Of a stretch of 37,581 nucleotides of DNA, positions 1 through 22,485 are shown piece after piece. Positions within the stretch are counted from its first letter, which is position 1, and each line of letters opens with the position of its first letter. The DNA comes from a virus, in the IMG/VR virus record IMGVR_UViG_3300034520_000247, positions 1-37,581 of that record; one strand, given 5' to 3'. A program made the translations under genes and the position numbers. Below the pieces are notes generated by a model, which was not told the DNA's origin, did no database searches, and worked only from the letters and a program-made list of their open reading frames with translations.

Positions 1-1260
1 GACATGTGGCTTACGGGATTTGATGTTCCATCAATGCACACAATGTATATAGACAAGCCAATGAAGGGGCATAACCTAATGCAGGCAATAGCAAGAGTAA
101 ATAGAGTTTTCAAAGATAAGCCAGGTGGAGTAATAGTTGATTATATTGGAATATTTGAAAGCCTAAAAAAAGCACTTAAAGTTTATACAGAAAGTGATAA
201 GAAGACAACTGGTATAGACACTTCTGTTGCAGTATCTATAATGCTTGAAAAACTCGAAATTTTAAAGGATATGTTCCATAAACTCGACTATTCAGGATAT
301 ATAAATGGAACTGAGATGCAAAGAATAAGAGCAATAACAGCAGGAATGGATTTTGTGCTTTCAATGGAAGAAAAAGATCAAAAAGAATTTAAAAACACAG
401 TTGTAGAACTTTCTAAAGCCCATTCACTTTGTGCATCAACTAAGGAAGGAAGAGCTGCAGCACTTGAGGTTAGCTATTTTAAAGCTGTAAAAGCAAGCCT
501 TGTAAAGCTTGAGAATAAGTCAACAAATAGGCTTTCAAAAAGAGAGATAGAGCATAGAATAAATCAGCTTCTTCAAAAGACAATAATATCAGAGGAAGTA
601 ATAGATGTGTTTGATACATTAGGACTTGAAAGACCTAATATATCAATATTGTCAGATGAATTTTTAGAAGAAGTAAGAACTATAAAATATAAGAACCTTG
701 CTGTTGAAATGCTAAAGAAGCTTTTAGAAGGCAAGATAAAAGCAATAGAAAAAAGAAACATAGTAAAGTCTGAAAAGTTTTCAGAAAAGCTCGATAAGGC
801 ATTAAATAAATACAAGAATCAAGCAATAACAAATGTAGAAGTAATTGAAGAACTTATAAAACTTGCAAAGGAAATACAAAAGGCAAGGGAGGAAGATATG
901 AACCTTGGCCTTTCAGAAGATGAAATAGCCTTTTATGATGCCTTAACAGCAGATGATGCAGTAAAGTTATTTATGAGTGATGAGGTTCTAAAACAAATAG
1001 CACATGAATTAACAGAAGCTATAAGAAGCAACATAACGGTTGACTGGAGCAAAAGAACAATGGCAAGGGCAAAGATGAGGACGATTATAAAAAGGCTACT
1101 TAAAAAGTACAACTACCCACCAAAGCAGGCAGAAAAGGCAATGGATATAGTAATGAAGCAGGTTGAAAAGATGTGTGAAAATGAAGTAGATGAATTGGAG
1201 GAAGATGATTACATAACAACAGAATTAGTAGCTGAAGGTAGAGATGAGTATAAAATTTGA
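1..1260 (+). CDS. hsdR: Type I restriction enzyme R subunit (HsdR), C-terminal part
   Basis: The reading frame is open to the left edge, so the gene starts outside the window and only about 419 C-terminal residues are seen. The first residues, [20 protein letters not shown], followed by QAIARVNR, match the end of the SF2 translocase domain (motifs V and VI) of HsdR. The rest is a long, charged, mainly helical region like the C-terminal HsdR domain that docks on the methyltransferase core. HsdR is the ATP-driven translocase and nuclease subunit of type I restriction complexes, which cut unmethylated foreign DNA. The nuclease domain and Walker motifs would lie upstream. No hsdM or hsdS follows, so they must be to the left or absent. 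The visible part is intact to a TGA stop. Family assignment is firm; whether the whole enzyme is active cannot be judged. Confidence 0.9.
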
Positions 1261-13972: not shown

Positions 13973-14010
13973 TAATACTACTCAAACAACCGATAGGAGG
14001 ATGAGATGAT
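13944..14010 (+). repeat. Partial tandem duplication at a gene junction
   Basis: AATACTACTCAAACAA occurs at 13944-13959 and 13974-13989. GGATGAGATGAT follows each copy (13962-13973 and 13999-14010). The first copy ends the Cys-cluster gene and the second carries the start of the DUF1492 gene. Confidence 0.8.
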
Positions 14011-14440
14011 GAATGCAAAAGAGTTTTTAAGGCAGGCTATATGGCTTGACAAACTAATAAATAGCAAATTAGAACATCTTGAAAAATTAGAGGCATTGGC
14101 CCAAAAGACAACAGTTGATTTGTCAAAAGAAAAGGTAACAGGGGGGAACGGTACAACGAGTCCAATGGAGAATGTTGTGGTAAAGATAATAGAGCTTAAA
14201 AGGGAAATAAATGAGGATATAGATAGATTAATTGATCTTAAAAAAGAAATTGGGAAGGTTATTTCAAACATAGACAACCCAAGTTATCAGCTGATACTTG
14301 AAATGAGGTATATTAATAATAGAAACTGGGATGAAATTGCTGATGAGATGGGGTTGGATAAGAGATGGCTATTAAGACTGCATATGAGAGCACTAAGAAA
14401 AATTGATGAAACTTTAAAACTCGCCACTAAAAGACATTGA
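14009..14440 (+). CDS. DUF1492/ArpU-like late transcription regulator, copy 1
   Basis: The 143-aa protein starts MNAKEFLRQA; ATG 14009 is eight bases after AGGAGG, and ATG 14006 is an alternative. It has an N-terminal coiled-coil-like region, a GGNGTTSP loop typical of DUF1492, a second helix pair, and a C-terminal sigma-region-4-like HTH (LEMRYINNRNWDEIADEMG through LHMRALRKIDE). Such proteins sit just upstream of the packaging genes in Firmicutes phages and are thought to activate late transcription. The last codons form part of the 10-bp repeat array of a putative late promoter. A paralogue follows. Confidence 0.82.
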   Translation: MNAKEFLRQAIWLDKLINSKLEHLEKLEALAQKTTVDLSKEKVTGGNGTTSPMENVVVKIIELKREINEDIDRLIDLKKEIGKVISNIDNPSYQLILEMRYINNRNWDEIADEMGLDKRWLLRLHMRALRKIDETLKLATKRH

Positions 14441-14524: not shown

Positions 14525-14559
14525 AAATAAATTAAATGCATGTAACAGGAGGTTATATA

Positions 14560-14964
14560 ATGACGGTAAAAGAATATTTAGGAAGAGCACTTAAAGTAGA
14601 CAAATTTATAAATCTAAAACTTGAGCAGTTAGCGTTATTAAATGAGTTCGAAGATAAAATTGCATATAGAAGTTTAGATATAGATTCTATTGAAAATATA
14701 AAAGAAAAAATAAAAGACTTAAGAACAGCAATCGAATCAGATATATATAAGCTATTTGATGTAAAAAAAGAAGTAATGACTATGATAAAGGAAGTTAATA
14801 ATATAGAATACCAAACACTTTTAGAACTAAGATATCTTTGTTTAAAATCGTGGGAGCAAATAGCATATGAGATGGGATACGACTTGCGTTACATTTATAA
14901 ACTTCATAAAAGAGCTTTAGGAAAATGTAAAATAAATTTAAAACACGCCACTAAAAGCCACTAA
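14560..14964 (+). CDS. DUF1492/ArpU-like late transcription regulator, copy 2
   Basis: This 134-aa paralogue of the previous regulator begins MTVKEYLGRAL at ATG 14560, with AGGAGG upstream. It keeps the two helical pairs and the C-terminal HTH (LELRYLCLKSWEQIAYEMG, LHKRALGKC) but lacks the GGNGTTSP loop, having a short insertion-free turn instead. It ends ATKSH, like the ATKRH end of copy 1, because both C-termini are encoded by the promoter repeats. The pair may have diverged to recognise the same repeats with different strength, or at different times; that is inference. Confidence 0.8.
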   Translation: MTVKEYLGRALKVDKFINLKLEQLALLNEFEDKIAYRSLDIDSIENIKEKIKDLRTAIESDIYKLFDVKKEVMTMIKEVNNIEYQTLLELRYLCLKSWEQIAYEMGYDLRYIYKLHKRALGKCKINLKHATKSH

Positions 14965-17809: not shown

Positions 17810-17816
17810 AATGAAT

Positions 17817-18551
17817 ATGGATAGAAAAGAAATGGTTAAAACTTTAAGCGAGATTTTAAATTATCCCGCAAAGTATCTTGGAGCACCAAGTTTTGCTTAT
17901 GAAATTGAAACAGAAGATGAAACTTACACAATAGACAGGCAAGGTAATATTACAACATTGGGAGGAAGAATTGTTACACTTGATGAGATTTTAAAATCAA
18001 GGCAACCTAAAGAGGAATTTGCCCTTGATAGTGTTAATTTAGAATTTCCAATAGAAGAGTATACGGGTAGAACTCTTAAAAATGTTTTAAATATGATTTA
18101 CAGCAAGCAGCACCTAATTGTTAAAGCATTAGAATTAAAAGAACATTTTATTGATGAGTCCTTTATAAAAAACTTAAATTCAAAGAAAATAGAGAATTTA
18201 GAAGAATTTAAAGATGCTATCAATGAATTAGGAACTGATGGTTTAAAAGGAATATACTTTGATTTTGATAAAGGAACATTTACATTTAAGCTTTTAGGTG
18301 AAGATATAACCAGTGAGAAAATAAAGGCTTTTATGGAACTTGCATCGTTTATAAATTTAAATGCCCAAAAGTTAAAATATGCATCATATAAACAGTCGCA
18401 GCAGGATAATCCTAAATACGCTTTTAGAACATGGCTAATTAGGCTTGGTATGAATGGAGATGAATATAAACAGATACGAAAAACACTTCTTTCAAATCTT
18501 GATGGGAACAGTGCATTTAGAAAAATTTCAAGGGAAGGGAGTGCAGAGTAA
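17817..18551 (+). CDS. Conserved mobile-element protein of unknown function
   Basis: The 244-aa protein has an N-terminal block YLGAPSFAYEIETEDETYTID that I associate with a conserved family on Firmicutes mobile elements, sometimes labelled virulence-related without evidence. The middle (TLKNVLNMIYSKQHLIVKAL) and C-terminus (FRTWLIRLGMNGDEYKQIRK) are helical and conserved in that family. No catalytic motif is seen. ATG 17817 is preferred over ATG 17811 because the GGAGG site needs spacing. It is driven by cassette B and overlaps the next gene by one base. Confidence 0.7.
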   Translation: MDRKEMVKTLSEILNYPAKYLGAPSFAYEIETEDETYTIDRQGNITTLGGRIVTLDEILKSRQPKEEFALDSVNLEFPIEEYTGRTLKNVLNMIYSKQHLIVKALELKEHFIDESFIKNLNSKKIENLEEFKDAINELGTDGLKGIYFDFDKGTFTFKLLGEDITSEKIKAFMELASFINLNAQKLKYASYKQSQQDNPKYAFRTWLIRLGMNGDEYKQIRKTLLSNLDGNSAFRKISREGSAE

Positions 18552-18745: not shown

Positions 18746-18771
18746 ATTGAAGGGGAAAGAAAAAAGGTTTG

Positions 18772-18800
18772 AGAGTCTACGGGTGTAGGCTCTTTATTTT
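18772..18800 (+). terminator. Intrinsic terminator before terS
   Basis: AGAGTCTAC / GTAGGCTCT (one U-G pair) with a four-base loop, then TTATTTT. Confidence 0.75.
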
Positions 18801-18821
18801 TCAAAGGGGGAGGTGAAACTT

Positions 18822-19292
18822 GTGGCAACAAGGGGAAGAAAACCAAAGCCAACTGCACTTAAAGTTATTGAAGGCAATCCAGGTAAAAGACCTTTAAATA
18901 AAGCAGAGCCAAAGCCTGAAAATAAAGCACCTAAATGTCCATCATGGCTTGAAAAGGAAGCAAAGAAAGAATGGAGAAGGATGTCAAAGGTATTAGAAAC
19001 TCTTGGTATATTAACTGAAGTTGATGCAGCTGCATTTGCAGGATACTGCCAAGCCTATGCAAGGTGGAAGGAAGCAGAAGAATTTTTATCGAAGCATGGA
19101 ACTATATTTAAGACACCATCTGGATATATACAGCAGGTGCCGCAGGTTTCGATTGCACAGACATATCTTAAAATTATGAAGGACTTTTGCTCAGAGTTTG
19201 GATTAACGCCTTCATCACGTTCAAGAATTGTTGCTAATGATAAATTAACAGAAAATGATGACCCAATGGAGATGTTACTAAAAAGTAAATAA
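18822..19292 (+). CDS. terS: Terminase small subunit, P27 family
   Basis: The 156-aa protein begins MATRGRKPKPTALKVIEGNPGKR in pattern, the hallmark of P27-family small terminases, and continues with CPSWLEKEAKKEW and the LGILTEVDAAAFAGYC helix pair. It binds the packaging site and loads the large subunit. GTG 18822 fits AGGTGA and the family start; the earlier in-frame GTG at 18813 lies in the site. terL would normally follow directly but a Spo0E-like unit intervenes. Confidence 0.9.
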   Translation: MATRGRKPKPTALKVIEGNPGKRPLNKAEPKPENKAPKCPSWLEKEAKKEWRRMSKVLETLGILTEVDAAAFAGYCQAYARWKEAEEFLSKHGTIFKTPSGYIQQVPQVSIAQTYLKIMKDFCSEFGLTPSSRSRIVANDKLTENDDPMEMLLKSK

Positions 19293-19326
19293 AAATATTT
19301 TATTTGACAACATTTTCAAACATAGA

Positions 19327-19359
19327 TTGACAAATTTTAATTATAAAAGGTGGTATAAT
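19327..19359 (+). promoter_or_regulatory. Promoter of the Spo0E-like unit
   Basis: TGGTATAAT (19351-19359) is a consensus extended -10. TTGACA at 19327-19332 is 21 bp away, longer than ideal; another TTGACA lies at 19304. Transcription would start about 20 bases before the gene. Confidence 0.6.
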
Positions 19360-19388
19360 AAAAAATAAAATGGGGGGGGAGAACTATT

Positions 19389-19562
19389 ATCACTAAAGAA
19401 AAATTATTAAAAGAAATGAATAAATTAAATAGAATGCTTGAGGGTGATATTGAAAGAACTTCTGATGAAGTTGTTAAACAAAGTCAAAAAGTTGATAGAT
19501 TGATATTAGAATATATGCGGGAATGTGGAGATATGAGTTGGATGAAAGAGAAGAATAAATGA
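19389..19562 (+). CDS. Spo0E-like Spo0A~P phosphatase
   Basis: The 57-codon frame reads KEKLLKEMNKLNRML, then SDEVVKQSQKVDRLILEYM, the two-helix pattern of Spo0E-like proteins with their S-Q-x-[LV]-D core. Family members dephosphorylate Spo0A~P and delay sporulation. The usual length is 50-85 aa. The start is unusual: the GGGGGGGGAG site (19372-19381) leads to ATC 19389 or ATT 19386, both non-standard; the first ATG (19416) has no site and would cut into helix 1. The gene has its own promoter and terminator and separates terS from terL, so it looks like cargo. Family call is by motif only; phosphatase activity is inferred. Confidence 0.7.
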   Translation: MTKEKLLKEMNKLNRMLEGDIERTSDEVVKQSQKVDRLILEYMRECGDMSWMKEKNK

Positions 19563-19580
19563 ATAATTTATATTTTATAA

Positions 19581-19611
19581 AGAGCCTTTAATAACAAAGG
19601 TTCTTTTTTTT
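19581..19611 (+). terminator. Intrinsic terminator after the Spo0E-like gene
   Basis: AGAGCCTTT / AAAGGTTCT (one G-U pair), six-base loop, then eight T. It lies just before the terL ribosome binding site. Confidence 0.8.
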
Positions 19612-19632
19612 ATATAAAAAGGGGGTAAATGA

Positions 19633-21180
19633 ATGCCTTACTCAGAGGAAAAGGCTAATAGAGTAATTACATTTATAGAGCAATTAAAGCTAACAAAAGG
19701 TAAATGGGCAGGGCAGCCATTTAAACTACTTCCTTGGGAACTTGATTTGATTAAAAAAGTATTTGGGACAATAAGGGTAGATGGTACAAGGCAATACAGA
19801 ACAGTTTATGTAGAAATTCCCAAAAAATCAGGAAAGTCGGAAATCGCCGCAGCTATTGCTCTTTACATGCTATGTGCTGATGGAGAATCAAATGCAGAAG
19901 TATATGTTGCAGCATGCGACCGCCAGCAGGCAAGTATAATATTTAATACAAGTGTAAATTTTGTAGAAGGTAATAGGACACTTTCAAGAGTTACAAAAAT
20001 TATTCGTTCTACAAAGAGAATAGTTTATCCAAGAACAGGTAGTTTTTATCAAGTATTGAGTTCAGATGTTAAATCAAAATCAGGACTTAATGTTTCTTGT
20101 GTTATATTAGATGAAATATGGACATACCCTAATGCAGACCTTGCCAAAATGTTAACCACAGGTTCAGGGGATGCAAGGGAACAGCCACTATTTATTTACC
20201 TTACCACTGCTGGAGATAAATTAAGTGGCTATGGATGGGAGATGCATCAAAAAGCAAAAGATATATTAGCAGGAAGAAGAATAGATAATACTTTTCTCCC
20301 TATTATTTATGGGCTTGAAGAAGGAGAAGATTGGGAAGATGAAAAAAATTGGTATAAAGCTAATCCAAGTTTAGGATATACATTAACAATAGAAAGGGTA
20401 AGGGAACATTTTGAACAGGCAAAACAAGACCCGGTAGAAGAAGCATTATTTAAACAACTAAGACTTAATATGTGGTTAAAACAAAATATAAAGTGGATGC
20501 CTCTTGATAAATGGGATAAATGTGCATTTGAAGTTGACCCTGAAAGATTAAGAGGAAGAATATGTTATGGAGGGCTTGACCTTTCAAGTACAACGGATAT
20601 AACAGCCTTTGTTTTGGTATTTCCACCACTTAACGAAGATGATAAATATTATGTTTTGCCTTACTTTTGGATACCAGAAGAAAATCTAAAACTTAGAGTA
20701 AAAAGAGACCATGTACCTTATGATGTGTGGGAAAAACAAGGGTTTATAAAGACAACAGAAGGTAATGTGATACACTATGGATTCATAGAAAGTTTTATAG
20801 AAGATTTAGGGACTAAGTATAACATAAAAGAGATAGCCTTTGATAGGTGGGGTGCAGTTCAAATGGTTCAAAATCTTGAAGGATTAGGATTTACAGTTGT
20901 TCCATTTGGGCAGGGATATAAGGACATGTCACCACCAACAAAGGAATTAATGAAGTTAACACTTGAAGAAAAGATAGCTCATGGAGGCAACCCGGTATTA
21001 AGATGGATGATGGACAATATTTATATAAAGACTGACCCTGCAGGAAACATAAAGCCTGATAAAGAAAAATCAACTGAAAAGATTGATGGTGCAGTTGCAT
21101 TAATTATGGCACTTGATAGGGCTTTAAGGAATCAAAACGCAGGGTCTGTTTATGATGATAGAGGAATTTTGGTGCTTTAG
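19633..21180 (+). CDS. terL: Terminase large subunit
   Basis: The 515-aa protein is an HK97-type large terminase. The ATPase half has Walker A EIPKKSGKSE at about residue 70 and Walker B VILDEIW near 160, with a coupling motif TTAGD. The nuclease half has GGLDLSSTTDITAF, which supplies the first metal Asp, and later acidic residues (IAFDRWG, EKIDGAVA). It powers DNA packaging into proheads and cuts the genome. GGGGG and ATG 19633 give a clear start. Consistent with a cos-type HK97-like phage given the HNH gene and the P27 partner. Confidence 0.93.
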   Translation: MPYSEEKANRVITFIEQLKLTKGKWAGQPFKLLPWELDLIKKVFGTIRVDGTRQYRTVYVEIPKKSGKSEIAAAIALYMLCADGESNAEVYVAACDRQQASIIFNTSVNFVEGNRTLSRVTKIIRSTKRIVYPRTGSFYQVLSSDVKSKSGLNVSCVILDEIWTYPNADLAKMLTTGSGDAREQPLFIYLTTAGDKLSGYGWEMHQKAKDILAGRRIDNTFLPIIYGLEEGEDWEDEKNWYKANPSLGYTLTIERVREHFEQAKQDPVEEALFKQLRLNMWLKQNIKWMPLDKWDKCAFEVDPERLRGRICYGGLDLSSTTDITAFVLVFPPLNEDDKYYVLPYFWIPEENLKLRVKRDHVPYDVWEKQGFIKTTEGNVIHYGFIESFIEDLGTKYNIKEIAFDRWGAVQMVQNLEGLGFTVVPFGQGYKDMSPPTKELMKLTLEEKIAHGGNPVLRWMMDNIYIKTDPAGNIKPDKEKSTEKIDGAVALIMALDRALRNQNAGSVYDDRGILVL

Positions 21181-21221: not shown

Positions 21222-21258
21222 AAAGATGAATGGTGTTTTTATGATTGGGGGGATGAAA

Positions 21259-22485
21259 TTGGATGATTTCTTTTTGAATATTGATTTTAACAACTATGAA
21301 ATTGGAAGAGAATATTTTAGATATAATAAAAAGTGCATTTTTGATATTATAAGAGAAATACTTGTATTAGAAACACCAGAAGAAATAGTAAGACAAAAAT
21401 TTGTTAGATATTTAATCGAAGAGTTAAAAGTGCCTAAAAACAAAATTGAAGTTGAAGTTCCAATGGTACATTTCAAAAAGGGTTCTAAAGGCAGAGCTGA
21501 CATAGTGGTTTATGCAGAAAATAATGAAGGATACTTAATTCCATTAATTCTTGTTGAATGTAAAGCACCTAATGTTCCTCTTATTGATGAGGTATGGAAA
21601 CAGGCGATTAAATATAATGAAATATTAGGTGCTGCAATAATAGTAATTACAAATGGTAATAACACTTATGCTGTTGTATTTGACGATGAAACTAAAGAAT
21701 ATTACTATATAGAAGAGATACCTGAATATAAAGAAATTTTAAGTGGAGGACAGTTTAAATATATATATGGTGATTTTGGGAGATGGGAAAGACCTAATTT
21801 TAGTGAATTAATTTGTGAAAAAACAATTAAGGAGTTTGAAGAATTAGGATGGATCGGAGAGGACACAGATACACGTTTATATCCTTTAATTTTTAATTTA
21901 GCAGGATTTTTACATGATACAAGAGAAAAATTTTCACCTATAAATTTTGAAGATTTGAAGATTATAGAAGATGGGCATCGCTATACTTCATTTGGAAATG
22001 CAGGGGGCGGAATTTGGGAAGGTGATTATAGATATTTTATCTTAGAAGATGAACAAGGAAATAATCAAATTATAAGTATGTCTATTTTTGGTTCATTAAA
22101 ATGCACTGACCATCCACAATTTGGTAACAGAAACGGAAATACAATTTTTGTAGTTTCTATTGATGATTTTGAGAAAAGACATAATTCATTGCAACTCAAT
22201 TTGGATAAATATACAAAGATTAAAGGTAATGAATTTACTATATGGCATGATGGAACTATAACAATTGGGAAAAATGGTGCAGCAAAAAGGAAAGAACTTA
22301 TTGAATATATAAAAAGTAAAGATATGTCGTTAGTAGATTCTAATGGTAATATAATACTTGGAACATTTGATTGTAACAAAGAAATATTATGGAAACAAAA
22401 GAATACAAGACAATTTATAAGAAATGCAATTAAATATGCTATTTTAAGAGATGAATTTAGAAGAATAAAACAAAGTAGTTTATAA
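21259..22485 (+). CDS. Stand-alone HsdR-N-type PD-(D/E)XK nuclease
   Basis: Residues ~30-135 match the nuclease domain at the start of type I restriction R subunits: TPEEIVRQKFVRYL, then GRADIVVY (D81), LVECKA (E100, K102) and the QxxxY motif QAIKY (Q115, Y119). No helicase motifs follow. The ~270-residue C-terminal part is unknown, with a glycine-rich GNAGGGIWEG stretch and a helical end. TTG 21259 is preferred because GGGGGG lies six bases before it; upstream ATGs (21226, 21241) are in frame. Own promoter and terminator mark it as an independent unit between terL and portal. It could restrict competing phages or act at host DNA; no activity is shown. Confidence 0.75.
   Translation: MDDFFLNIDFNNYEIGREYFRYNKKCIFDIIREILVLETPEEIVRQKFVRYLIEELKVPKNKIEVEVPMVHFKKGSKGRADIVVYAENNEGYLIPLILVECKAPNVPLIDEVWKQAIKYNEILGAAIIVITNGNNTYAVVFDDETKEYYYIEEIPEYKEILSGGQFKYIYGDFGRWERPNFSELICEKTIKEFEELGWIGEDTDTRLYPLIFNLAGFLHDTREKFSPINFEDLKIIEDGHRYTSFGNAGGGIWEGDYRYFILEDEQGNNQIISMSIFGSLKCTDHPQFGNRNGNTIFVVSIDDFEKRHNSLQLNLDKYTKIKGNEFTIWHDGTITIGKNGAAKRKELIEYIKSKDMSLVDSNGNIILGTFDCNKEILWKQKNTRQFIRNAIKYAILRDEFRRIKQSSL

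Follow-up and report, generated by a model that had tools for sequence, protein, structure and literature searches.

Cargo genes of the moron type are known in temperate phages from the lambdoid phages. Spo0E-like phosphatases, represented by Bacillus subtilis Spo0E, the Bacillus anthracis proteins 2c0s and 2bzb, and Clostridioides difficile CD3271, belong to the control of sporulation: in Bacillus, Spo0A is inactivated by Spo0E, and in C. difficile Spo0E acts as a repressor of sporulation (PMC11115286). Phage spo0E genes are already known (PMC4909266; PMC10075063), some with proposed quorum-sensing control. Gp70 of Brevibacillus phage SecTim467 is a Spo0E-like protein with 96% similarity to a host Spo0E, encoded within a putatively transposable region (PMC4909266), and for spo0E or abrB genes located beside RRNPP quorum-sensing systems in phages and prophages a hijack of sporulation timing has been proposed (PMC10075063). 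Here we analyze a Spo0E-like gene located between the genes encoding the small (terS) and large (terL) terminase subunits in the virus record IMGVR_UViG_3300034520_000247, whose entire stretch of 37,581 bases is referred to below as the window.

We propose, with a probability of roughly 0.6, that this is a prophage gene activated by phosphorylated Spo0A (Spo0A~P) and encoding a Spo0A~P phosphatase, that is, a feedback brake on sporulation; the sequence evidence for this reading is strong, with Spo0A control and phosphatase activity being predicted. The window protein shares with the described Spo0E-like phosphatases its size, the hairpin, the S-Q-x-x-D signature, PF09388 membership, and a profile match, whereas its gene is phage-borne at a terminase junction, carries SQKVD instead of SQELD, starts with ATT, and follows a promoter of the spoIIG/spoIIE kind. 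With SecTim467 gp70 it has in common the presence of a Spo0E-like protein in a phage genome, and with the RRNPP-linked genes a phage-borne homolog of a sporulation-initiation regulator. In contrast to the latter, control apparently runs through a Spo0A~P-type promoter and the gene lies between terS and terL; no RRNPP receptor was recognized among the neighbors scanned. Like a moron, it is one gene, with a promoter and a terminator of its own, between genes that abut in relatives, but its promoter seems tied to the master regulator of host sporulation rather than constitutive. The literature searched contained no report of a phage spo0E under a spoIIG/spoIIE-type promoter or at a terminase junction.

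A promoter of the spoIIG and spoIIE type

The window encodes terminase, portal, major head, tape measure, and tail proteins, as well as an antirepressor, a DNA polymerase, and a primase. The 340-bp insert between terS and terL comprises a promoter, a G-rich ribosome-binding site, a 58-codon frame, and an intrinsic terminator, arranged as follows.

18813-19292, plus strand: terS, terminase small subunit (Terminase_4, PF05119, E 2e-30; 97% identity to terS of Caloramator prophage L114)
19302-19324, plus strand: putative upstream regulator site, ATTTGACAACATTTTCAAACATA, a block unchanged in the alignment with prophage L279
19327-19359, plus strand: promoter, TTGACA-21 bp-TATAAT with TG extension; the pattern TGACAAA-N19-TATAAT shared with host spoIIG and spoIIE promoters lies at 19328-19359
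19372-19381, plus strand: G-rich ribosome-binding site, GGGGGGGGAG, read from the sequence; its L279 counterpart at the same spot is AGGGGAG
19386-19562, plus strand: Spo0E-like gene, 58 codons and stop, ATT start (PF09388, 33.5 bits; dN/dS ~0.08 against L279; AlphaFold2 hairpin, pLDDT 87; start comparison)
19579-19611, plus strand: intrinsic terminator, 11-bp stem and T-tract; an equivalent hairpin lies downstream of L279 spo0E
19633-21180, plus strand: terL, terminase large subunit (TerL_nuclease, PF20441, E 1.9e-56; PF03354)

The initial annotation had placed the gene between terS and terL, with a promoter and a terminator of its own. The Terminase_4 and TerL_nuclease matches of the flanking genes and an 11-pair stem that runs from 19579 to 19606 and leads into T's (-11.5 kcal/mol) agree with this, and an Rfam search of the window gave no match. 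Its extended -10 element is present as well (TGGTATAAT, 19351-19359); what had been missed is that the -35 element, a perfect TTGACA at 19327-19332, lies 21 bp rather than 17 bp away, as in Spo0A~P-dependent promoters of the spoIIG/spoIIE type, which turns a model of constant repression into one of a feedback brake. Because of this spacing, a promoter scan restricted to 16-18 bp did not report the site.

Among the sigma-A promoters activated by Spo0A~P in B. subtilis, the spacing is 22 bp in spoIIG and 21 bp in spoIIE, and a shared pattern was therefore predicted for the spoIIG and spoIIE promoters of the hosts and then tested. Across 17 Caloramator-family genomes, NTGACA-21-TATAAT stands upstream of most spoIIGA and spoIIE genes. 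A search of these genomes (~44 Mb) for exactly TGACAAA-N19-TATAAT, with sites assigned to genes by coordinates, returned 33 matches, compared with 14 for the reversed pattern used as a control; they fell upstream of spoIIGA (15), spoIIE (10), and spo0E of the L114 prophage (1), with 7 elsewhere. TGACAAA, 21-bp spacing, and TATAAT mark spoIIG and spoIIE promoters in these hosts. Genome G001, which carries the L114 prophage, has only two exact matches, at spoIIG and at the prophage spo0E. When one mismatch was allowed, the only match in the window was the spo0E promoter, itself exact, against a chance expectation of 0.46 for the whole window, and a plain BLAST search with the window segment independently matched the spoIIG promoter of G114 (42 bp, 83%, E 2.8e-5). 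Within the Spo0A regulon, spoIIG and spoIIE count among the sigma-A genes (PMC12090719), and C. difficile Spo0A binds spoIIE and spoIIGA DNA (PMC3485338).

The same spacing recurs in related phages, with 21 bp separating the two elements upstream of spo0E in the window, L114, L279, L203, and L209, and 22 bp in L417. A general late-phage promoter was considered and rejected: among ~160 related phage terminase loci, the pattern occurs near terminase genes only where spo0E is present. The gene could instead be an ordinary moron, with a phosphatase produced constitutively from the extended -10 and lowering Spo0A~P at all times, and with a spacing devoid of regulatory meaning. The element TGGTATAAT, the gene's own promoter and terminator, and its family membership would all suit this account, yet the 21-bp spacing and TGACAAA are retained across otherwise diverged phage promoters, the match to host spoIIG and spoIIE promoters is far above chance, the pattern precedes 0 of ~50 host chromosomal spo0E-like genes, and the L114 promoter lacks the TG extension. 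We regard constitutive expression of this kind as doubtful, although a serious contender.

The same promoter pattern was also seen at L361:1501 and L362:1501 (genomes G106 and G107), between a thiN-like gene and a gene encoding a small membrane protein, where it may mark a further member of the Spo0A regulon or have arisen by chance.

The Spo0E-like protein and its start codon

Assignment to the Spo0E-like family, put forward from the two-helix pattern with an SQKVD core, held in a profile search and in structure prediction. The frame at 19386-19562 matches Pfam SpoOE-like PF09388 (E 4.3e-8, 33.5 bits, against a gathering cut-off of 23 bits), also when the whole record is searched, and the AlphaFold2 model is a short antiparallel hairpin of two helices (residues 4-19 and 26-47; pLDDT 87). 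SQKVD fits S-Q-x-x-D, with V instead of L at the fourth of the SQELD positions, and S33 and D37 are invariant in an alignment of 27 relatives. Two B. anthracis Spo0E-like proteins of known structure, 2bzb (E 5e-7) and 2c0s (E 3e-4), are matched by a profile built from this alignment. NCBIfam and PHROGs hold no family for the 58-amino-acid protein, no relative emerged when 50,697 phage records were searched with the gene by tblastn and distant blastn, and a scan of viral contigs with the single protein as query gave no match. With the alignment as query, the scan gave one match, in the unrelated phage L250, where spo0E lies among other small genes and lacks the 21-bp promoter.

The nearest non-phage relatives are Spo0E-like genes of host chromosomes, which suggests that the window gene was captured from a host. 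By sequence inspection alone, these adjoin sensor or GGDEF-like genes (L301, L283) or murE- and NUDIX-like genes (L286, L292, L295).

A Spo0E fold may also serve another target, so that the protein would bind or dephosphorylate a different response regulator, or act through an RstA-like partner on motility or stationary-phase behavior, and not mainly on Spo0A. The SQKVD signature, the closer mutual similarity in the 27-relative alignment of the phage and some chromosomal KQSQxVD proteins than to the rest, and the finding that C. difficile Spo0E binds RstA besides Spo0A and affects motility (PMC11115286) speak for such a role. Against it stand the invariance of S and D in the signature, a promoter that ties spo0E to the Spo0A regulon, and the increase in spore numbers upon loss of spo0E in C. 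difficile (PMC11115286), and we consider it unlikely.

The frame had been described as one of 57 codons without a standard start; it has 58 amino acids counted from ATT and 57 from the next codon, ATC, and the in-frame codons at its head (AAA ATA AAA TGG GGG GGG AGA ACT ATT ATC) include no ATG, GTG, or TTG. The first in-frame ATG is codon 11, which lies within helix 1 of the model and has no clear ribosome-binding site. L279, a prophage remnant in genome G116 from the same family as Caloramator, keeps the gene order terS-spo0E-terL, and in both sequences the start reads GGGGAG-4 nt-ATT-ATY-ACT-AAA-GAA, with no in-frame standard start upstream. Chromosomal relatives L301 and L283 have ATG-ATT at the position of ATT-ATC, and the ATT of the window therefore occupies the place of their ATG. 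An alternative start at the ATG at 19370, reached by a one-base change in the G8 tract (slippage or sequencing error), was not adopted as the main reading, since this ATG is missing from L279, which retains ATT-ATT-ACT in frame. In the Clostridium caldaquaticum prophage L417 (reverse strand, ~2832) ATA stands in place of the Spo0E ATG, and an in-frame GTG three codons upstream may substitute. Starting at ATT probably limits how much product is made or makes its amount adjustable.

Selection on the frame is apparent from comparison with L279, whose Spo0E is 82% identical over 55 residues. The 21 nucleotide changes across 49 codons are distributed 5/2/14 over the codon positions (binomial p 0.002 for the third-position excess), with nonsynonymous (dN) and synonymous (dS) divergence of 0.069 and 0.82, respectively, and dN/dS of ~0.08. 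As judged from this ratio, the shared gene order, the common ATT-ATT start, and the identity, the frame is a real protein-coding gene under selection. In the relatives, terS-spo0E-terL proves to be an inherited arrangement that is under selection. The gene might instead be a passenger in decay, taken from a host, already deprived of its start (ATG to ATT), and retained by a few prophages by chance. This would explain why the window and L279 have no standard start, ATA in L417, the wrecked state of the L279 prophage (terS broken, terL truncated), and the absence of spo0E from most related phages. With dN/dS at ~0.08 across 49 codons after divergence from L279, 14 of the 21 changes at third positions, and the promoter, ribosome-binding site, and terminator all retained, we find this explanation very improbable.

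Recurrence at the terminase genes

Among relatives whose terS lies close, nearly all have a terS-terL distance of -11 to 46 bp (an overlap or a short gap), compared with 340 bp in the window, in line with the earlier statement that the two genes are normally adjacent. A spo0E gene stands between them in the window, L279, and L114, the last being a prophage of Caloramator sp. SKW256. The terS genes of L114 and the window are 97% identical, yet Spo0E shares only 38% and TerL 73% identity, for which reason a block comprising spo0E and terL has probably been exchanged. In L114, spo0E overlaps the start of terL (ATGTTTGA), with no terminator between the two genes. Another form of the gene is located just upstream of terS and followed by a hairpin with a T-run; it is found in L203 (the same place as L294 and L404), L209, L408, and L417. 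Seven spo0E genes were found in the phage lineage, all of them next to terminase genes and with a promoter of their own, usually together with a terminator.

Only L203 and L209 carry a Spo0E-like gene among the 79 terminase-related virus records searched; the third match, L250, is the unrelated phage, fetched by its Spo0E. The junction between terS and terL also accepts other cargo, namely a 174-amino-acid HNH-like frame in L003 and L024. From these comparisons, spo0E is a rare cargo with a preferred place in the phage lineage, which occurs as prophages in spore-forming relatives of Caloramator. The window gene, an extra gene with its own promoter and terminator between genes adjacent in relatives, is, on sequence grounds, moron-type cargo of a temperate clostridial phage, with expression in the lysogen predicted.

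Several other features were observed in and around these loci. A hairpin whose core resembles GAGTCTAC..GTAGGCTC, with T's after it, lies just upstream of terS in the window (18771-18794), L279 (3403-3425), and L203 (2943-2966); it is kept in diverged phages, whether spo0E adjoins or not, and is a candidate terminator, antiterminator target, or packaging signal. The terL genes of L114 (4864-7404) and L203 (3479-6007) are split by intein-like in-frame insertions of ~0.9 kb each. Upstream of terS, an amidoligase-like gene (phrog_2443) is present in the window (17811-18551) and L203 (1567-2178), followed in L203 (~2213-2627) by a frame that resembles gamma-glutamylcyclotransferase on sequence inspection only. 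Between terL and the portal gene, the window encodes an orphan HSDR_N_2 nuclease-like protein (21226-22485) not found at this place in L114. At the left edge of the window (4-1260) is the 3' portion of a gene for a type I restriction R subunit, possibly host flank, and a tandem pair of related regulator-like proteins (phrog_36, DUF1492, similarity to sigma-70 region 4) is encoded at 14006-14440 and 14536-14964.

Predicted role in the sporulation decision of the host

In the proposed feedback brake, rising Spo0A~P, the activator of spoIIG and spoIIE, would also switch on the prophage spo0E. The small aspartyl-phosphate phosphatase, as expected from its family, would then strip the phosphate from Spo0A~P and lower its level, so that the lysogen would delay or abort entry into sporulation just as the threshold is reached and would stay vegetative. 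The host would thereby be kept in a state permitting phage replication or induction. This agrees with the role suggested in the initial annotation, holding the host in vegetative growth; the alternative named there, that the gene steers lysis versus sporulation, may also apply.

Several observations weigh against this model. The extended -10 could permit constitutive transcription, and the promoters of the other phages deviate from the pattern: one mismatch each is present in L279 (-35, TTTACA) and in the L203 type (-10, TATACT), and L417 has 22 bp. AUU start codons are usually weak. Foldseek comparison of the model with the Protein Data Bank placed 2c0s at rank 20 (E 6.5) with none of the matches significant, although failure to single out Spo0E structures is expected for a hairpin query of 58 residues. 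Partners of Spo0E-like proteins other than Spo0A are possible, and the C. difficile protein also acts via RstA and on motility (PMC11115286). The window has only degenerate 0A boxes when compared with the consensus TGTCGAA and the Spo0A contacts, which include G5 (PMC3485338): on the reverse strand, TGTCAAA within the upstream site at 19302-19324 agrees at 6/7 positions, and TGTCAAT at the -35 element at 5/7, the contacted G5 missing. Many spoIIG promoters of Caloramator-family hosts likewise have no near-perfect 0A box.

A more far-reaching version, which we consider a long shot, is that a promoter modeled on or captured from host spoIIG/spoIIE lets the phage sense Spo0A~P as a sign of starvation. 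The phosphatase would abort sporulation and, in lineages without the terminator such as L114, where spo0E overlaps terL, transcription of packaging genes would start as well, so that the prophage would prepare its exit before the host becomes a dormant spore.

Gene finding restricted to ATG, GTG, and TTG would overlook the window spo0E because of its ATT start, and similar genes may be overlooked elsewhere. As to how a prophage would time a phage-borne spo0E, the window promoter points to an answer, being wired like those of the first sporulation genes of the host. If this is true, the prophage has a self-limiting feedback brake on the sporulation decision of its host.
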